DNA from: Clostridiales bacterium
GTDB lineage: Bacteria > Bacillota > Clostridia > Saccharofermentanales > Saccharofermentanaceae
Length of the DNA stretch: 64,000 bases
Reading direction: 5' to 3'
Assembly (NCBI GenBank): GCA_017515465.1
Contig: JAFWFV010000049.1
Coordinates: 1-64,000, forward strand
In this document: positions 6,788 to 64,000 of the stretch, one piece after another
Layout of the letters: the number at the start of each line of letters is the position of its first letter
Numbering within the stretch: the stretch's first letter is position 1
Program-made: the position numbers and the translations under genes
Notes under the pieces: model-generated
Databases searched by the model: none
What the model was told of the DNA's origin: nothing
The model's input: only the letters and a program-made list of their open reading frames with translations

Positions 6788-9223
6788 ATGATCAGGGTTA
6801 TTGAGGAAAAGACTCCCTTATTCGTACTCGGCACTGACAACACCAGCTATCTGTTCAAGGTAACGGATACGGGCCATCTGGAGCATCTGTACTATGGTGC
6901 CAGGATAACAGCTGAATCCTCAGACGGACTTACCGAACCCCATGAATTCGCGGAGGGAAATACCAATTCGGTGGATGATGATCACAAGAACTTTTCACTC
7001 GAGAACATACGCCTCGAAATGAGTTCCTACGGCAAGGGTGACATACGTGAACCCATGTTGGAGATCACCAACAGCGACGGCAGTTCCACATCCGATTTCA
7101 GGTACGGCTCATATGAGATCTCCCGTGGCAAGGCTGAGCCTGAGGACTTCCCCGGTTCCTACGGCAGCGAGGAAGAGACGGAATGCCTCAAGATAGTTCT
7201 CTCCGACAGTGAGAACAGGCTGAAACTGGAAATGTACTACTATGTATATCCGGCATGCAATGTGATCACCAGGAAAAATGTCATCATCAACAACGGCTCT
7301 TCCGCCGTGACATTGGAGAGATTCATGAGCATGCTCATGGACATGGATAACGGCAGCTATACGATGCATACCTTTACCGGCGCGTGGGCCAGGGAGATGC
7401 ACAGGTCCGACCTGGATATCAGGGCAGGCAAGACAGTGGTCTCATCCTGCACCGGAACGTCGTCCAGCAGGGCCAATCCTCTGGTCATGATCTCTCAGGG
7501 ATATGCCAACGAGGAATATGGAAAAGTATACGGCTTCAATCTCATCTACAGCGGCAATCATTACGAGTGCTGTGAGATGAGCCCCTACGGGAAGGTAAGG
7601 TTTGTAGCAGGCATCAATCCCACGGGATTCAGATGGAAGCTCGAACCAGGCAGTTCCTTCGAAAGTCCTGAGGAGATAATGACTTTTTCCGCTTCCGGTT
7701 TCAATAACATGAGCCATAATTTCCATGATTTCATCAACACTCACGTCGTCAGAGGTGAGTGGAAGGAGCGGCTTCGGCCCATTCTCCTGAATTCGTGGGA
7801 AGCAGCTTATTTCAAGATAAGCGAGGATAAGCTGGTATCGATCGCCAGACGTGCAAAAAAGATAGGCATAGAACTGTTCGTCATGGATGACGGCTGGTTC
7901 GGCCAACGCAATGACGATACGTCTTCTCTGGGCGACTGGTATGCAAACACGAAGAAACTGCCAAACGGTGTAAAGGGCCTGTGCAATAAGATCCGCGACA
8001 TCGGAATGGATTTCGGCATCTGGGTGGAACCCGAGATGATAAGCGAGAACAGCGAACTCTTCCGTTCCCACCCGGAATGGGCCGTCAGGATACCTGACAA
8101 GGCACATTCCAAAGGCAGGAACCAGATGATCCTGGATCTGACCAGAGATGATGTTCAGAGATTCATCATAACTATGATGACTGACCTCCTGTCATCATGC
8201 GAGATATCGTATGTAAAATGGGACATGAACAGAACGTTTACTGACGTCTATTCCGCCGCCCTTCCCGGGGACAGGCAGGGGGAGATGATCCACAGGTATT
8301 ACATGGGTCTGTATCATGTAATGAACGTGATCACAAAGAGATTTCCCAAGGTGCTCTTTGAGGGGTGTTCCGCAGGCGGAAACAGGTTCGATCTGGGAAT
8401 ACTGTCATACTTTCCCCAGATATGGGCAAGCGATGATACTGATGCCGCAGTAAGGGCGGAGATCCAGACCTCATACAGCTACGGATATCCTCTGAGCACG
8501 ATCTCGTGCCATGTATCAGATTCGCCCAACCATCAGACACTGCGCCGCACACATTCCGGCACCAGGTTCAACGTTGCATCATTCGGTGTCCTCGGTTACG
8601 AGTGCAACTTGACTGACATGAGCAGGTTCCAGCTGGACGGATTCAGGAAGCAGATAGAAGCATATAAATCCTGGCGCAGGACCATGCAGTACGGCAGGTT
8701 CTACAGGATAATGAACATCCGGGATTCCCTGACGGAGACACCGTCAGTTATAACCCCTACGACAGGAAAGCACCTGGAGTGGTGTGTGGTATCTCCCGAC
8801 AGGTCCTTTGCCGTATCCATGATCCTGCAGCTGGCAGCAGTCCCCAACTCCCAGAGCGCAGTCATACATCCTGCAGGGCTGGACGGTGATACACTCTACG
8901 ACGTAAGAGGCAGGGACATAACATTCAGCATCCTGGAATTCGGCAGCCTGATCAACACCTCATCTCCCGTCCACATCCGACCAGAAGGACAGAACCACCA
9001 CATAATCGACAAGTTCGTGCGCATGTCTTCCGAAAAGGAGGAACACACCATGTACGGGGATGCTATAATGAATGCCGGGATACATCTGAAATCTGCGTTT
9101 GCCGCAGTCGGTTATAACGACAACGTCAGGTTCTATCAGGATTATGCATCCAGGATATACACGATCACGAGTGTTGAAAAAGAACACGCATCTGAGGACA
9201 AGGAGAGCAAGACGGATGGCTGA
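6788..9223 (+). CDS. Alpha-galactosidase, glycoside hydrolase family 36
   Basis: The 811-residue protein hydrolyses terminal alpha-galactosyl residues. It shows the GH36 catalytic (beta/alpha)8 barrel with FVMDDGWFG, WVEPEMIS, and the nucleophile motif KWDMNR with Asp479. The acid/base motif is SDDTDA with Asp549. These numbers match the spacing of known bacterial GH36 enzymes. It is somewhat longer than the usual 730 residues because of a C-terminal extension after about residue 740. No signal peptide is present, so it acts inside the cell on imported sugar, consistent with the transporter immediately upstream. GAGGTGA, which contains the transporter stop, serves as its ribosome site. The 3' end overlaps the NUDIX gene by 8 bp. 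Confidence 0.92.
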   Translation: MIRVIEEKTPLFVLGTDNTSYLFKVTDTGHLEHLYYGARITAESSDGLTEPHEFAEGNTNSVDDDHKNFSLENIRLEMSSYGKGDIREPMLEITNSDGSSTSDFRYGSYEISRGKAEPEDFPGSYGSEEETECLKIVLSDSENRLKLEMYYYVYPACNVITRKNVIINNGSSAVTLERFMSMLMDMDNGSYTMHTFTGAWAREMHRSDLDIRAGKTVVSSCTGTSSSRANPLVMISQGYANEEYGKVYGFNLIYSGNHYECCEMSPYGKVRFVAGINPTGFRWKLEPGSSFESPEEIMTFSASGFNNMSHNFHDFINTHVVRGEWKERLRPILLNSWEAAYFKISEDKLVSIARRAKKIGIELFVMDDGWFGQRNDDTSSLGDWYANTKKLPNGVKGLCNKIRDIGMDFGIWVEPEMISENSELFRSHPEWAVRIPDKAHSKGRNQMILDLTRDDVQRFIITMMTDLLSSCEISYVKWDMNRTFTDVYSAALPGDRQGEMIHRYYMGLYHVMNVITKRFPKVLFEGCSAGGNRFDLGILSYFPQIWASDDTDAAVRAEIQTSYSYGYPLSTISCHVSDSPNHQTLRRTHSGTRFNVASFGVLGYECNLTDMSRFQLDGFRKQIEAYKSWRRTMQYGRFYRIMNIRDSLTETPSVITPTTGKHLEWCVVSPDRSFAVSMILQLAAVPNSQSAVIHPAGLDGDTLYDVRGRDITFSILEFGSLINTSSPVHIRPEGQNHHIIDKFVRMSSEKEEHTMYGDAIMNAGIHLKSAFAAVGYNDNVRFYQDYASRIYTITSVEKEHASEDKESKTDG

Positions 9224-56699: not shown

Positions 56700-57668
56700 T
56701 CATACGATCCTGTTAAGCGTGCCTCCGGCAATGAAATCCTTCAGGTTTTCGGCGGCCATTTCTATGAGACGGATGCGGGTCTCCTGAGGTGCCCATGCGA
56801 TATGGGGAGTAAGGCATGCATTAGGACAGCCCAGCAGAGGATTATCCGCCAGCATGGGTTCCACATTGATGACATCGGCTGAATATCCTGCCAGACGTCC
56901 GTCTCTGAGAGCGGACGCAACTGCATCCTCGTCCACCAGGGGTCCGCGGGCGCAGTTGATGATAAATGCGGAAGGCTTTATGAGCTTTAATGTATCACCG
57001 TTTATCAGACCTTTTGTCTCATCCGTCAGAGGACAGTGGAGACTGATGACGTCAGCGTTCCTGAGGCCTTCTTCCAGAGGCCTGATCCCTACGGGTGTTC
57101 CAAAGCAGTCGACGGCATCAGATCCGGGATTCCTGTGGACTGTTGCGGTGACATTCATTCCCAGTGCACCGGCTATTGCGGCGACCCTCCTGCCGATCTT
57201 TCCGAGGCCTACTATGTGCAGATTCTTGTTCCACAATTCCGAGAGGGGCTGCTTAAAGAAGCAGAACTGTTCGGAGGTGACCCATTCACCCTTCATGACA
57301 GCCTCGTTATGCAGGCCAACCTTGTTTGCCATCTCCAGCATATGTGCTACTGTCATCTGGGCAGTTGCAAAGGTGCTGTATTCGGGAACGTTTGTAACGG
57401 CAATGCCTTTCTGTCTGCAGCAGTCGAGATCGACCACATTGTAACCAGTGGCCAGAACGCCGATATATTTCAAGTCAGGGAGCTGGTCGAGCTCCTCCTT
57501 TCCGAATATCCTCTTGTTGGTGATGGCACAGTCGAATCCACGTGTCCTTTCGACTACGTCCTTCTGATCAGTCGTATCGTATACTACCGTCTCTCCCAGA
57601 GCCTCTATCTCCTTCCATGAGATATCGCCGGGATTTGCTGCGGAACCGTCCAGGATCACTATGCGCAT
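56700..57668 (-). CDS. D-isomer specific 2-hydroxyacid dehydrogenase (glycerate dehydrogenase-like)
   Basis: The 322-residue NAD enzyme has VGLGKIGRRVAAIA, HCPLTDETKGLI, the catalytic arginine in NCARGPLVDEDA, the glutamate in VINVEP and the histidine in LTPHIAWAPQE, all in normal spacing. It is closest by eye to hydroxypyruvate/glycerate dehydrogenases, but the substrate is not fixed. GAGAGGTG precedes the ATG at 57668, so the GTG at 57677 is not used. Confidence 0.88.
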   Translation of the reverse strand: MRIVILDGSAANPGDISWKEIEALGETVVYDTTDQKDVVERTRGFDCAITNKRIFGKEELDQLPDLKYIGVLATGYNVVDLDCCRQKGIAVTNVPEYSTFATAQMTVAHMLEMANKVGLHNEAVMKGEWVTSEQFCFFKQPLSELWNKNLHIVGLGKIGRRVAAIAGALGMNVTATVHRNPGSDAVDCFGTPVGIRPLEEGLRNADVISLHCPLTDETKGLINGDTLKLIKPSAFIINCARGPLVDEDAVASALRDGRLAGYSADVINVEPMLADNPLLGCPNACLTPHIAWAPQETRIRLIEMAAENLKDFIAGGTLNRIV

Positions 57669-57716
57669 GATAAACACCTCTCTTTGGTAAATTATTTCTT
57701 GATTTTCATAAAGAAT

Positions 57717-57725
57717 GTTATATTA
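57717..57725 (+). promoter_or_regulatory. Extended -10 before the CbiG-like gene
   Basis: TGTTATATT (57717-57725) fits an extended -10; TTCTTG lies 17 bases upstream of its TATATT core. Start codon follows 35 bases downstream. Confidence 0.5.
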
Positions 57726-57759
57726 CAAGAGTATATACGCATTGCATGGAGGGACGCAA

Positions 57760-58830
57760 ATGTATTTGCTCTGCTATGGTAGATCCGATAATGCAAAAAA
57801 GACCGGTGACGGTCTTATCGGCAGGATCGGCGGAAGATGGATAGACAGTGCTGATTTCTTTACTTCGAGAGTTCCGGTATCTGCCAGTGAGAGAGATGCG
57901 GTAATTGTCCTCATCCTTCCCCTGGAGGCATCGATAGAGATATTGAACGGTAATTTCTCTCCCACGCTGTCAGGATTCCCTGTCATCTGCTGTTCTCCCG
58001 ACGGGCTTTTTGCTGCCGTCATCAGCAGGGGAGACGGATCGACCCTGGCTGACTGTGACGATGTCTATGGCAGGATCTGCGAATGCCTGGGGCCCAAGTG
58101 TTTCAGGAGCTTCGGCAGCAATGCGGACATTGCTCCGGATCTGTCCACAGCCATCGAATCATACGGCATGACTGCTAATGACAGTGAGAAACTGAGATCA
58201 TATCTCGCAATGATCAGGAGCGGTGAGAAGGTCAGCATATATACCGATCTGCCCATAGTATTTGCAGAGAGCGCGATCGATTCCATGATCTTTGACGTTA
58301 ACAGGTATTCGAGGGAGACCAAGGAATCATTCCTGCAGTCATATATATCACTGACTGCCAGTTCGTCCAGAGCGATATTCATCACATGTGCCAAGCTTCC
58401 GGACTGCCCCGGAGAGCCGCCTCTCGTCCTGATACCCAAGCTGGTCAGTGTGGGATTGGAACTTACGGGGAGATGTGATCCTGAATATGCTGCAGTACTG
58501 GTACTTGCAACACTGGAGAATCACGGCATAGATTCCAGATCCGTATCAACCATCGCCGTATCCCAGTCAGCCAGAGAGAGCGACATCGTACATAAGGTTG
58601 CCGAAATGTTCGGAGCATCCGTTACGGCATTTTCGACCAAGGTGCTCCAGGAGGTCAAGCTGCCTCTCAAGATGACCTTTGCCCCCGTCAGGGAACAGAC
58701 TGACATCGCAACGGCCGCATGCTATCAGACATCCGGAAACGGCAGGATACTCATCAGGCGCGCAGCGGAGAAGAGCGGCCTGGCGATCTCCGCATGTCTG
58801 AAAAGAGGAAATATATTATTAACTGAATAA
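57760..58830 (+). CDS. CbiG-like protein, orphan and degenerate
   Basis: The 356-residue protein resembles CbiG, cobalt-precorrin 5A hydrolase. The C-terminal third (about residues 225-355) has the CbiG/CobE layout: LVSVGLELTGRCDPE, then LATLENHGIDSRSVSTIAV, KVAEMFGASVTAFS and GRILIRRAAEKSGLAISAC. The N-terminal half follows the CbiG length and strand order but lacks the GGAN and GIAxR type motifs. No other cobalamin genes are near, so it may act elsewhere or be a relic with a new role. GGAGGG precedes the ATG at 57760. Confidence 0.55.
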   Translation: MYLLCYGRSDNAKKTGDGLIGRIGGRWIDSADFFTSRVPVSASERDAVIVLILPLEASIEILNGNFSPTLSGFPVICCSPDGLFAAVISRGDGSTLADCDDVYGRICECLGPKCFRSFGSNADIAPDLSTAIESYGMTANDSEKLRSYLAMIRSGEKVSIYTDLPIVFAESAIDSMIFDVNRYSRETKESFLQSYISLTASSSRAIFITCAKLPDCPGEPPLVLIPKLVSVGLELTGRCDPEYAAVLVLATLENHGIDSRSVSTIAVSQSARESDIVHKVAEMFGASVTAFSTKVLQEVKLPLKMTFAPVREQTDIATAACYQTSGNGRILIRRAAEKSGLAISACLKRGNILLTE

Positions 58831-58849: not shown

Positions 58850-59869
58850 ATGAAGAGATTATCCAAAAAAGCTGTAAACACAAGCAAAGGCATCATGATC
58901 GTCGTAGTATCCGTACTCGGCACGATAACACTGGCAGCATGCTCTATCAATTACAGAGAGCTCGCTGACGGCATAAATGACATCGGCAGGGGAATGGATC
59001 ACATGGTCAACGGAACGTCTTCGGCAAGAGAGACAGAAGATCCTTCTGATACTGATCCTACTGAGAGTTCTGAAACTGACGAGACGGCAGAAACGCCTGC
59101 TCCCACCGCAACACCTACACCTGCTCCTACGGGAACTCCCGTTCCGACACCTACACCCATGCCTGACAGGGTCGATTTCTCTGAACTGACAACTGATGAG
59201 ATCAGCGATACCCTGGAGGTCCAGCTGGAGGAATTTGCCGAGAGCCATCATGATGAAGAGGACGGTGAGGAGCTCGTAACATTCGCAGGAAACAGGATGG
59301 TACTGTCCATGCCTGAAAACGAGAATATCCAGCTGGCGCTGAACAGCCTGATAGATGGTTTCTACTATGAGGCAGAAGGACTGTACAACAGATATTCCGG
59401 CGAGGCCGATGCTGCATATGCCCTCGACAGTGAGATATACATGGAGGCTCCATATGCCGTTTCTGTCAATTTCTCATATTCATATAATGGTAGATTATTA
59501 TCTGTTATTAAGAACTACGAGGTAACACAGGGCGAGGAGAACATCATCGACGAGAAGAAAGAGATCGATACATACGATGTACTGACCGGCAATCTCGTAA
59601 CCCCTGCCATGGTTGCAAAGGATACTACTGCCCTCGGAAATGCACTTGCTGCTTCCATCGCATTTGCGGCATCAACAGAAGAGGTTCAGTACACTGCATC
59701 CCAGGTAACTGATCCCGTCATCGTAGTACACGCCCAGGGCAACGGAACAGCCTTTGCCGAAGCATATGGTTTCATCAACGGAACCAGGTTCAATGCACCT
59801 GTAGATCTGACCAATTACGCAGATTATCTAAATTCCTACGGCAAAATTGTATATAAGATCAACCGATGA
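58850..59869 (+). CDS. Lipoprotein with Thr/Pro linker and unrecognised C-terminal domain
   Basis: The 339-residue protein has a lipoprotein signal ending LAAC (Cys31), an acidic Thr/Ser/Pro/Ala-rich linker (about residues 55-105) and a C-terminal domain of about 215 residues. Part of this domain (VSVNFSYSYNGRLLSVIKN, then EKKEIDTYDVLTGNLVT) recalls the DUF3298/RsiV-type fold of Gram-positive anti-sigma and deacetylase proteins, but the match is weak. It follows the CbiG-like gene by 19 bp and may be co-transcribed. Confidence 0.65.
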   Translation: MKRLSKKAVNTSKGIMIVVVSVLGTITLAACSINYRELADGINDIGRGMDHMVNGTSSARETEDPSDTDPTESSETDETAETPAPTATPTPAPTGTPVPTPTPMPDRVDFSELTTDEISDTLEVQLEEFAESHHDEEDGEELVTFAGNRMVLSMPENENIQLALNSLIDGFYYEAEGLYNRYSGEADAAYALDSEIYMEAPYAVSVNFSYSYNGRLLSVIKNYEVTQGEENIIDEKKEIDTYDVLTGNLVTPAMVAKDTTALGNALAASIAFAASTEEVQYTASQVTDPVIVVHAQGNGTAFAEAYGFINGTRFNAPVDLTNYADYLNSYGKIVYKINR

Positions 59870-59937: not shown

Positions 59938-60072
59938 GTAAGAATACGCGTTTTATGCGTTATGACGTATAAGGCAGGCGTATCGCGGGCGTACCTCCGG
60001 GTACGGCGCAAGCAAAATTTGGTCCTAATTGGACAGAAAATAAAACCTTAATTTATGAGGAGGAAAAAACAA
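59938..60072 (+). promoter_or_regulatory. Structured 5' leader of the sugar ABC operon
   Basis: It includes a perfect hairpin CGTACC-TCCG-GGTACG (59990-60005) and repeated GCGTAT-like motifs (about 59957-59984). It ends with GAGGAGG before the start codon. A regulatory RNA is possible; no known riboswitch is recognised. Confidence 0.35.
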
Positions 60073-61458
60073 ATGAAGACAAAGAAGATTGTTGCTTTGG
60101 TTCTGTCAATGGCAATGGTTCTCGGCGTTGTTGCAGCTTGTGATAAGACAGGCGAGTCTGAGACATCTGCAGCTTCCGAAACTTCTGCTGATGCTACAAC
60201 AGAAGCTCCTGAATCATCCGAAGAGACAGATCCTGTTGCTGACACATCTGAGTTCGTAGAGCTTCCCGTACAGGAAGTATCAGATGAGGGCGATAAGGTT
60301 CTTATCTATGGATGGAACGAGGAGTTCCCTGGACTCGTTGAGAAGTACTCTGACGTAGAGTTCGATCTCGAGACAACAGAGTCCAACGCATACCAGGCAA
60401 AGTTGGACCAGGTTCTTGCATCTCCTGATGAAGCACCTGACCTGTTCGTTTGTGATGCAGACTATGCTTCCAAGTACATGAACTCTTCCAACACCCTTGC
60501 AATCAATGACATTGGTATCGCTTATTCTGAGCTTTCAGAGATGTACAACTACACTCTGCAGTTCGCTACAGACGATAACAGCGTTATTAAGGGTCTGGCA
60601 TGGCAGGCTTGCCCTTGCGGCGTTTTCTACAACAAGGCTCTTACACAGGAGTACCTTGGCGTATCTGAGCCCGATGATGTTGCTCAGCACTTCGCATCAT
60701 GGGATGCATTCCTCGATGCTGCTAGAACAGTTAAGGAAGCTTCCAATGGTCAGGTTAAGATGATTTCTGGTATCGATGATATCTGGAGATCTTACCTCAA
60801 CACACGTACACAGGGCTGGATCGTTAACGGTGAGCTCGTAATCGACCCCGTTATGGAAGACTACTTCGATCTCGGTAAGGCTCTCCACGATGAGGACCTC
60901 ACATGGCAGACATCACAGTGGTCAGACGCTTGGACAAACAACGCTGGCAACAAGTCAACAGTAGCTTACTTTGGACCTATGTGGCTCGGTAACTTCTGTC
61001 TGCCTTTCGGTGCAGATGGATATGATGCTGCAACAAACGGCGCTTGGGGCCTCACAACAGCACCTGCTCCTTCATTCTGGGGCGGCACATGGATGATGGC
61101 TTCTAAGCACTGCGACATGAAGGCATCTTGCGCTCAGATCATGAGAGACGTAGCTCTTACAGCTGCTAACCTCGAGGATATGGCAAACGGCGGTGAGTTC
61201 GTTAACAGCGTAGCTATCATGACAGCTAAGGCTGCTGATACAAACTTCCACGTAGCTTGGCTCGATGGACAGAACCCTGCTTCTGTTCTCCTCGCTTCTG
61301 CTTCTACTCTTGACAACTCAACAGTAGGTCAGGACGACCAGACAATCAACAATGAGTTCACAACAGCTGCTAACTCTTACTTCGAAGGCACAATCGCTTC
61401 CGTAGCTGATGCTGAGGCTGCATTCGAGAGCGCTCTTTCTGAGCTCGGTATTATCTAA
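60073..61458 (+). CDS. Sugar ABC transporter substrate-binding lipoprotein (family 1)
   Basis: The 461-residue protein has a lipoprotein signal ending VVAAC (Cys23), a Ser/Glu/Thr linker and a two-lobed binding-protein domain (DKVLIYGWNEEFPGLVEKY, PDLFVCDADYASKYMNSS, CGVFYNKALTQEYLG). Codons such as GCT, AAG and GGT are strongly preferred, which suggests high expression. The ATG at 60073 has GAGGAGG upstream; the frame start at 60055 does not. It delivers a carbohydrate, identity unknown, to the permease encoded downstream. Confidence 0.88.
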   Translation: MKTKKIVALVLSMAMVLGVVAACDKTGESETSAASETSADATTEAPESSEETDPVADTSEFVELPVQEVSDEGDKVLIYGWNEEFPGLVEKYSDVEFDLETTESNAYQAKLDQVLASPDEAPDLFVCDADYASKYMNSSNTLAINDIGIAYSELSEMYNYTLQFATDDNSVIKGLAWQACPCGVFYNKALTQEYLGVSEPDDVAQHFASWDAFLDAARTVKEASNGQVKMISGIDDIWRSYLNTRTQGWIVNGELVIDPVMEDYFDLGKALHDEDLTWQTSQWSDAWTNNAGNKSTVAYFGPMWLGNFCLPFGADGYDAATNGAWGLTTAPAPSFWGGTWMMASKHCDMKASCAQIMRDVALTAANLEDMANGGEFVNSVAIMTAKAADTNFHVAWLDGQNPASVLLASASTLDNSTVGQDDQTINNEFTTAANSYFEGTIASVADAEAAFESALSELGII

Positions 61459-61587: not shown

Positions 61588-64000
61588 ATGGCAAGAGCTA
61601 ATAACACAGGCAAGCGTAAGGGTATGAGCTATACCCGTTACGGCTACATCTTTATTGCTCCTTTCGTAATTGCTTACTGTATATTCAGTCTCTATCCCTT
61701 GCTTACTACATTCTGGTTTTCCACTGCCAACATGCAGTCCGCAACGGCACAGTTCTGGGGCTTCGGTAACTACGAAGCTTACTACGACCGTTACCTGGAT
61801 CTTACAAAGCTCTATTCTGACAGCTTTGAGCAGGATGTAGGAATCAAGAAGAATGAATACGTTAAGATCAGGAACTACTTCTCTGCACAGGACAAGGCAG
61901 ATACTTACGATCCTCTTAACGAAGAAGGCATTCAGGCAATTATTGCAAACGGAGCCAATTCTCTGGTATCCCAGAGCGCTATCGACGAGCTTCAGCAGGC
62001 TCTTAACAACAAAGACCTTGGTCTTCTTTCACAGAGCAGTGTAGAAGAACTTAAGGCATGGAGATCACAGTATTCTGATATCTCCCTCATAATCTCACAG
62101 AAGGTTTCTTCAATTGCAGGCACAGTTGCAGATATTGCAAATGCCGGTGCATCTGACGATGAGGAAGCAGCAGCTGAGGAAGAGACAGAGGCAGTAACAG
62201 CTGAGTCTATCTATACAGCTGAGAACTACGATACATTCGTAGAATCCCTTTCAAATTCAGACCTTACAGAGGAACAGCAGGCTCTGGTCAATTATCTCGC
62301 AGGACAGACAGGTTATCCTACTCTTCAGGAGTACTTTAATGCTGTTAAGAACGGCGAAGTATCAGTTGAAGATCCCATGTTCTTCTATGTTTTGACAAAT
62401 CTTAACAAGCCTAATGCCGTTACGGCTGCAGGCGAGAGCGTACCTGCTATCTCTGTACCTTTCATTGATACAGTTGAAGAGTACCTTAAGGCAAATGTTT
62501 GGGGCGATCTCGTTAAGTCACTCAATACATTTGACAGCCTCGAGGCATACGGTGACGGATCCAAGGGTCTCCACGAAGATGAGGAGAGTCTCTATGCAGA
62601 TCTCGAAACACTGAACAATGCAGGTATCATCAACATAGTCAAGCTGCAGGTATCCGGCTCCAGTGTTATCGTTTCCAACGATCAGAAGAGCGATGCCAAC
62701 GCACTGGCTATCTACCGTACTTTCATCGACACAGCATACGAAGCTAACGATACTGAGCTCGCTGCTGCTGTACAGATCTCCAAGCTGACCACATATTATG
62801 AGGATCAGGGACGTGTTCTCCTGACAGCTCTCGGAATCTCTGTTGATAAGTACATCTCATTTGACGGCACATTCGATCTTGATAAGTATTTCGCTTTCAA
62901 GAGCGAGGTAGGCCTTACAGACGCACTGAGCTATGACAGATATAAGGAGCTCGATGCTGCACGTAAGGAATCCAACGTTGCAAATGCTCAGAAGAAGCTC
63001 GAAGAAGCTGAGGCAGCAATCCCTGCAGCACAGGCTGCTTATGATGCCATCGGCGGAAACGACACTAATTCCAAAGAGTATAATGCTTTGAGAAAACTCG
63101 AACTCCAGGTTATCTCGTCCAAGGATACTATCAAGGATCCTACAGGTATCCTCGAGAAGGTTGATGCACGTTATGTTTATATCTTCGATGGTCTTAACAA
63201 CTATGCTGAGATATTCACAAACAAGACGAGATTCAACACGATCGTTGGTGCATTCTGGAATACAGCTTTGATGTGGGTCATCGGTTTCATACCTCAGATC
63301 CTCCTGGCTCTCCTCCTGTCTGCATGGTTCACAGATACAAAGCTCCACCTCAAGGGCCTCAGCCTCATGAAGGCGCTCATGTATCTGCCTAACGTTATCA
63401 CCGCTGTTACGGTAGCTATCTTCTTCAGAAGATTGTTCTCCTACTCATCCGGTGGTACGCTCACACCTTCACAGATAATCCTCCATGCTATGGGTATGGA
63501 ACAGGGTTATAACTTCTTTGCCAATGCATGGGCAACAAGACTCATCGTCTGCTTCATCAACTTCTGGATGTGGTACGGCAATACGATGATTGTCTTGATC
63601 GCAGGTATTACATCCATCAGTGAGTCTCTCTACGAGTCAGCTCAGATCGACGGTGCTAACTCATTCCAGACTTACACAAGGATCACGTTGCCTCTCCTGA
63701 GACCTATCGTTCTCTTCACATTGGTTACCTCCCTCATCGGTGGTCTCCAGATGTTCGATATCCCTCAGAACATCAACGTAAACCCTGCACTTGTTAATTT
63801 CAACGGAACAATGATCAAGTCCATCAGGACCGTTCTGATCTACATCAACAACCAGGCATTTGGTATGCAGGATGTTAAGCAGGTTGGTATCGCTGCAGCT
63901 ACATCAGTATTGCTGTTCGTCGTAACCACGATCCTGTCTATCATCATCTTCTACCTCATGAGAGATAAGGATGCTGCCAAGGCCAAGAGAGCTCTTAAGA
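61588..64000 (+). CDS. Sugar ABC transporter permease (MalF/UgpA type) with about 460-residue insertion, runs off the edge
   Basis: The frame is open to the last base, giving at least 804 residues; a normal permease of this class has about 300. Helix 1 is near residues 18-41. Helices from about 548 on have the standard order, with SLMKALMYLPNVITAVTVAIFF and the EAA loop ISESLYESAQIDGANSFQTY near 678-697, so the permease core is intact. Between them lies a hydrophilic, mostly helical, acidic block. A segment FWGFGNYEAYY near 56-66 and FDGLNNYAEIF near 533-543 both look like the usual FxGxxNY motif that follows helix 1, so the insertion sits between them. GGAGAG precedes the ATG. Confidence 0.85.
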   Translation, partial: MARANNTGKRKGMSYTRYGYIFIAPFVIAYCIFSLYPLLTTFWFSTANMQSATAQFWGFGNYEAYYDRYLDLTKLYSDSFEQDVGIKKNEYVKIRNYFSAQDKADTYDPLNEEGIQAIIANGANSLVSQSAIDELQQALNNKDLGLLSQSSVEELKAWRSQYSDISLIISQKVSSIAGTVADIANAGASDDEEAAAEEETEAVTAESIYTAENYDTFVESLSNSDLTEEQQALVNYLAGQTGYPTLQEYFNAVKNGEVSVEDPMFFYVLTNLNKPNAVTAAGESVPAISVPFIDTVEEYLKANVWGDLVKSLNTFDSLEAYGDGSKGLHEDEESLYADLETLNNAGIINIVKLQVSGSSVIVSNDQKSDANALAIYRTFIDTAYEANDTELAAAVQISKLTTYYEDQGRVLLTALGISVDKYISFDGTFDLDKYFAFKSEVGLTDALSYDRYKELDAARKESNVANAQKKLEEAEAAIPAAQAAYDAIGGNDTNSKEYNALRKLELQVISSKDTIKDPTGILEKVDARYVYIFDGLNNYAEIFTNKTRFNTIVGAFWNTALMWVIGFIPQILLALLLSAWFTDTKLHLKGLSLMKALMYLPNVITAVTVAIFFRRLFSYSSGGTLTPSQIILHAMGMEQGYNFFANAWATRLIVCFINFWMWYGNTMIVLIAGITSISESLYESAQIDGANSFQTYTRITLPLLRPIVLFTLVTSLIGGLQMFDIPQNINVNPALVNFNGTMIKSIRTVLIYINNQAFGMQDVKQVGIAAATSVLLFVVTTILSIIIFYLMRDKDAAKAKRALK

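Follow-up and report, generated by a model that had tools for sequence, protein, structure and literature searches.

The window, as we call the whole stretch of DNA that was analysed, is 64,000 nucleotides long and comes from a Clostridiales bacterium of the family Saccharofermentanaceae (contig JAFWFV010000049.1). As shown in Table 1, a solute-binding lipoprotein gene near its right-hand end is followed by the gene for a MalF/UgpA-type permease of the CUT1 class, in which a large extracytoplasmic domain is inserted between the first two membrane helices. Further downstream lie, in this order, a MalG/UgpE-type permease, a GH94 protein, a lipase-like protein and a second GH94-like protein. The MalG-type protein is the second permease that had been expected to the right of the window; it has an ordinary length of 291 aa and is not an insert carrier. 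The lipase-like protein (class 3-like, membrane-anchored through its N-terminus, 811 aa; L005:11695-14127, + strand, just right of the window) sits between the two GH94 genes, a position where it was not seen in the relatives examined. Most relatives also keep the CbiG_C-like protein and the lipoprotein with the Thr/Pro linker on the left flank, again upstream of the binding protein. A GH36 alpha-galactosidase (Melibiase), a further gene for oligosaccharide use, occupies 6788-9223 of the window.

Table 1. Features at the right-hand end of the window (residues of the permease are counted from ATG 61588)
Feature	Position	Strand	Evidence or remark
2-hydroxyacid dehydrogenase, syntenic left flank	56700..57677	-	synteny
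CbiG_C-like protein (weak likeness), syntenic left flank	57715..58830	+	synteny
Putative lipoprotein with Thr/Pro linker, syntenic left flank	58850..59869	+	synteny
Solute-binding lipoprotein (SBP_bac_1, 467 aa), taken as the cognate binding protein from its position	60055..61458	+	PF01547 E=4e-8; 8bfy E=8e-9
CUT1 permease of the MalF/UgpA type, carrying an insertion between helices 1 and 2	61588..64000	+	810 aa; stop at 64018-64020, beyond the window
Transmembrane helix 1, residues 16-45, aligned to MalF helix 3	61633..61722	+	hydropathy, alignment
Inserted extracytoplasmic domain, residues 59-528, predicted all-helical	61762..63171	+	AlphaFold2 mean pLDDT 90.8, pTM 0.67; profile confined to one bacterial family
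Acidic linker inside the domain, residues 189-199, predicted disordered	62152..62184	+	pLDDT<50
Coiled-coil hairpin, residues 449-516, tip length varies	62932..63135	+	predicted structure; about 80 extra residues in L058
Permease core helices 2-6, about residues 546-794	63223..63969	+	PF00528 above cut-off; MalF alignment
EAA coupling motif YESAQIDGANSFQTYTRITLPLL	63631..63699	+	aligned with MalF YEASAMDGAGPFQNFFKITLPLL

The permease frame is free of stops from 61579 to its stop codon just past the window (816 codons), as the original prediction of one uninterrupted frame had stated. It can start at GTG 61579 or at ATG 61588, the latter being favoured by conservation among relatives. A misassembly, or a separate gene fused by a frameshift or sequencing error, had been named as the finding that would overturn this architecture. 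However, of 25 related public contigs, which came from Saccharofermentans, Mageeibacillus and their relatives, 24 had the long frame, and the one exception, L059, is a short relative that lacks the insert. The frame also recurs in 32 genomes of the family, and an artefactual fusion was therefore rejected. Moreover, dN/dS between close relatives was 0.07-0.21 for the insert versus 0.02-0.13 for the core, and the sequence identities were 42% and 76%, respectively. By its dN/dS, the insert evolves under purifying selection. The insertion is thus real and inherited, and it is predicted to be folded and extracytoplasmic.

Hydropathy and the alignment with MalF predicted six membrane helices in the permease. 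The original estimate of about 460 hydrophilic residues between helix 1 and the remainder held and was refined: the extra block spans about residues 52-545, of which 59-528 make up a folded domain of about 470 residues. In Pfam and NCBIfam, the CUT1 permease fold was matched solely by the C-terminal part of the protein (PF00528, BPD_transp_1, 42.3 bits against a curated cut-off of 26.4). The nearest solved relatives were AlgM1, MalF and SugA. MalF 249-506 was aligned with P0001 526-791, and the EAA coupling motif was present between helices 4 and 5.

MalF has two additional N-terminal helices compared with the window permease, and in an alignment that included short paralogues its helix 3 (LFVLFPLVCT) fell on permease helix 1 (CIFSLYPLLTT). 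Therefore, the P2 domain of MalF and the insert lie in the same loop, and the earlier view that P2 lies between later helices had to be dropped. MalF P2 contains antiparallel beta-sheets and touches the binding protein in MalFGK2E (PMC3150292). Since P2 has beta-sheets whereas the insert is helical, and since hhalign found no sequence similarity between the two (probability 0.1%, E=0.79), they are analogous in place and not homologous by the tests applied. The common site would suit a role in regulation or gating, in which the domain would sense substrate outside the cell and tune the ATPase activity; titles cited in PMC8134467 attribute to MalF-P2 both the activation of substrate transport and the communication of substrate availability. 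Nevertheless, the insert has no sequence or fold relation to P2, and we regard such a role as very unlikely.

The AlphaFold2 model of the domain, built on 25 related sequences, was almost all-helical and of high confidence. A predicted coiled-coil hairpin (residues 449-487 and 496-516), with a tip of variable length, closes the domain and runs into the linker before helix 2; it corresponds to the coiled-coil-like stretch that had been noticed near residues 480-500. In the full-length model, the alignment was shallow and the membrane core reached a pLDDT of only about 45, so that no geometry of the domain relative to the pore is claimed. The block had also been described as helical and acidic. 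Both features hold, and the block is hydrophilic with a net charge of -44; its acidity, however, is not special, since the binding protein (-41) and the lipase-like protein (-69) are comparably acidic.

The predicted fold of the domain is confident and autonomous. Database comparisons gave it no credible sequence or fold relative. Pfam yielded no match to the domain of the window, and two isolated weak matches in other members look like chance; NCBIfam gave a single weak match below the cut-off. A profile search against PDB sequences reached E=0.59 at best, and Foldseek with the domain model gave E values of at least 1.0 for the PDB and at least 0.59 for viral models. The best VIA-align hit (Z 7.1 over 74 residues) was the hairpin alone; these structural comparisons covered mainly the hairpin and barely the rest of the domain, and do not establish that the fold is new. 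Profile-profile comparison detected no signal of internal repeats within the domain.

The large size of the domain, its fast change relative to the core and its variable hairpin tip would suit a part that faces the environment. It could accordingly bind another partner, such as a cello-oligosaccharide, cellulose, peptidoglycan or an extracellular enzyme, and act as a surface anchor or a substrate concentrator near the pore; the insert distances, which do not specifically track the binding protein, are in keeping with this. Against it, no carbohydrate- or wall-binding family or fold was matched, although such searches would miss a new fold, and the domain of most members has only two tryptophans, which are invariant and possibly in the core. 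The original proposal of polysaccharide binding thus gained no positive evidence, and we consider a partner of this kind unlikely.

The insert had also been thought to have arisen with duplication of an FxGxxNY motif. Two strings of this form, FWGFGNY and FDGLNNY, do bracket the insert in the window protein; the first copy, however, reads FWGFxNKEVYYD in most relatives. Shuffled sequences aligned as well as the flanks of the two motifs did (p=0.3 in the window protein; p<0.05 in 1 of 25 members), and a duplication is not borne out.

The insert architecture was detected in 32 of the 115 genomes of the family, in two genera. In the permease-core tree, all insert-bearing permeases fell into one clade (SH-aLRT 98), so that one origin suffices. 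Outside the family, the insert profile had no credible match in the sampled genomes of the class and phylum; the one marginal match among 398 phylum genomes covered the coiled-coil only. Within its own genome, no further copy was found beyond one weak coiled-coil match. The best matches to the core in the class, about 150 in number, were otherwise short, their open frames spanning about 290-375 codons apart from a read-through case of 599. The carriers belong to one family of gut and rumen bacteria. Since the constraint on the insert is weaker than that on the core, and the helix 1-2 loop varies freely in length among related permeases, which are 324-352 aa long or, in one case, 504 aa, the domain could be a passive spacer or a structural element that stabilises or helps to assemble the permease pair without a specific ligand. 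But 21 invariant positions across 25 sequences, together with a confident compact fold, exceed what a spacer needs, and this explanation appears doubtful.

The surrounding genes point to the substrate. The best solved relative of the binding protein is the cellobiose-binding protein 8bfy, and the first downstream GH94 protein matches cellobiose phosphorylase 3qde end to end. The binding protein, the insert permease and the MalG-type permease adjoin in nearly all relatives. A GH94 cellobiose phosphorylase lies within the available stretch at 17 of 25 insert loci, several others being cut by contig ends; in the second genus, it directly follows the insert-bearing cassette at both loci. In at least two genomes (G142 and G011), it is encoded on another contig. 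On this sequence evidence, the system is a probable CUT1 importer of cellobiose or cellodextrins. Since no ATPase gene was present among the operon genes examined, a shared ATPase of the MsmX/MsmK type is assumed and probably powers the importer.

Cellobiose phosphorylase was encoded in 107 of the 115 family genomes, far more than carry the insert permease. At 22 of 23 same-genus loci examined that lack the insert permease (L108, L109, L114, L116, L117 and L119-L135), the binding-protein gene lies immediately upstream of the cellobiose phosphorylase gene, no permease gene separating the two, and most such loci share the left flank of the window (2-hydroxyacid dehydrogenase, CbiG-like protein and lipoprotein). 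L118 (G002, same genus) has the flanks and cellobiose phosphorylase, with no detectable binding protein between them. The same pairing with cellobiose phosphorylase occurred at 12 loci of another genus (L110, L111, L115 and L138-L146), where the binding protein is more distant. On the cellobiose phosphorylase tree, well-supported branches require no fewer than three switches between loci with and without the insert cassette, which indicates that the cassette was repeatedly lost or gained. A hand count of 59 same-genus genomes gave 11 with the insert permease only, 7 with both it and the short paralogue, 36 with the short paralogue only and 5 with neither (Fisher p=2e-4, relatedness not being corrected for). 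From this pattern, it is plausible that a shared short permease serves the orphan binding protein.

Long branches were found for the orphan binding proteins that fall inside the insert-linked clade. In relative-rate comparisons, orphan L127 had 90 unique changes and its sister L043 had 30 (p=4e-8); the counts were 92:35 and 133:42 for L109 and L123, and ranged from 70:41 to 88:36 for L133, L114 and L132. Two comparisons between insert-linked binding proteins gave 33:56 and 59:65, and the deeper orphan L108 gave 47:34, which was not significant. Orphans of several same-genus lineages have thus evolved about 2 to 4 times faster than their insert-linked relatives. No acceleration was seen in the cellobiose phosphorylases encoded at L108, L109 and L114, whose end branches measure 0.031-0.064, and the two observations together fit a binding protein that is held by a dedicated permease. 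These comparisons support a constraint by the permease pair; they concern the pair and not the insert itself. In a mirror-tree analysis, the binding protein tracked the permease core (partial r 0.70), whereas the insert and the binding protein, with core and partner controlled, gave a partial r of 0.11, and 439 of 2000 permutations were as high. Both partners are strongly acidic, so that no simple charge complementarity between insert and binding protein was seen.

The most economical role for the insert is to dock or position the binding protein, and for docking we see the chances as evenly balanced. We infer it from the site shared with P2, the confident fold, the purifying selection, the linkage of the genes and the rate shift of the orphans. 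Against it stand the null mirror-tree result, the acidity of both partners, the lack of sequence similarity to P2 and the helical structure in place of beta-sheets. Furthermore, lipid-anchored binding proteins usually do without such a domain. The best reading is still that, in a cellobiose/cellodextrin importer, the domain serves the binding protein as a P2-like platform specific to this lineage, although some tests gave this no support and it may prove right or wrong with about equal probability. On this platform model, the helix 1-2 loop of the MalF-type subunit would have grown into a separate helical domain outside the membrane, standing over the mouth of the translocation path. Together with the MalG-type partner, the domain would hold or orient the cognate lipoprotein, and the loaded binding protein would thereby be kept at the pore, as MalE is by P2. 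The imported cellobiose would then be phosphorolysed by the neighbouring GH94 enzymes. A bolder form, which we consider rather improbable, is that a new helical domain family of single origin acts as a built-in dock that dedicates one permease pair to one binding protein; where the pair is lost, the binding protein would be freed, be served by a permease pair encoded elsewhere and change quickly.

How far extra loop domains account for the specificity between binding protein and permease is a question that is still open and for which MalF P2 has been the main basis. The present family provides an independent, larger domain at the P2 site, together with close relatives that keep the binding protein at an otherwise intact locus from which the permease pair is absent. 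Such a series makes it possible to ask whether loop domains determine which permease a binding protein works with, and it bears on cellobiose uptake by fibre users of the rumen and gut. If the bolder form given above is true, nature would have provided a series of importers, some intact and others rewired.

Among the relatives, the genus also has short MalF-type paralogues of 324-352 aa, which are 46-51% identical in the core and have their own binding protein and MalG-type partner. However, they are without the insert, their binding protein is only about 30% identical, and no GH94 gene was seen adjoining. The 504-aa L060 paralogue has about 170 extra residues at helix 1-2 that are unlike the domain of the window; this stretch (L060:3608-5119, - strand, the same as L027) includes a long Asp/Glu/Ala run. 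By context, the system resembles Athe_0595-0598 of Anaerocellum bescii, a CUT1 importer of cello-oligosaccharides in a Gram-positive anaerobe whose ATPase MsmK is encoded elsewhere, as would suit the window system; in the part of that report available, an enlarged extracellular domain is not mentioned (PMC12838199).

Large helix 1-2 domains in other permeases, which the original prediction had looked for, are already known. MalF P2 of E. coli MalFGK2E is likewise a large extracytoplasmic domain of a MalF-type subunit, in the equivalent loop and with the binding protein alongside. It differs in having about 180 residues, in belonging to a protein of eight helices instead of six, and in working beneath an outer membrane with soluble MalE, whereas the binding protein of the window is lipid-anchored. 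In the MalG1 and MalG2 proteins of Thermotogales, helices 1 and 2 are separated by about 500 hydrophilic residues, of which the function is not known (PMC2246101). Like the present insert, these are confined to one lineage and show no similarity to known proteins, and by their published description they match it in size and in position in a CUT1 permease; they are in the MalG-type subunit instead of the MalF-type one. With MalF P2, the Thermotogales MalG proteins and the extra stretch of L060 taken together, the helix 1-2 loop looks like a site at which lineages have repeatedly gained domains. The present domain is closest in kind to the helix 1-2 domains represented among CUT1 permeases by P2 and by the Thermotogales inserts, to which it adds a helical version of about 470 residues in a MalF-type subunit of one family.
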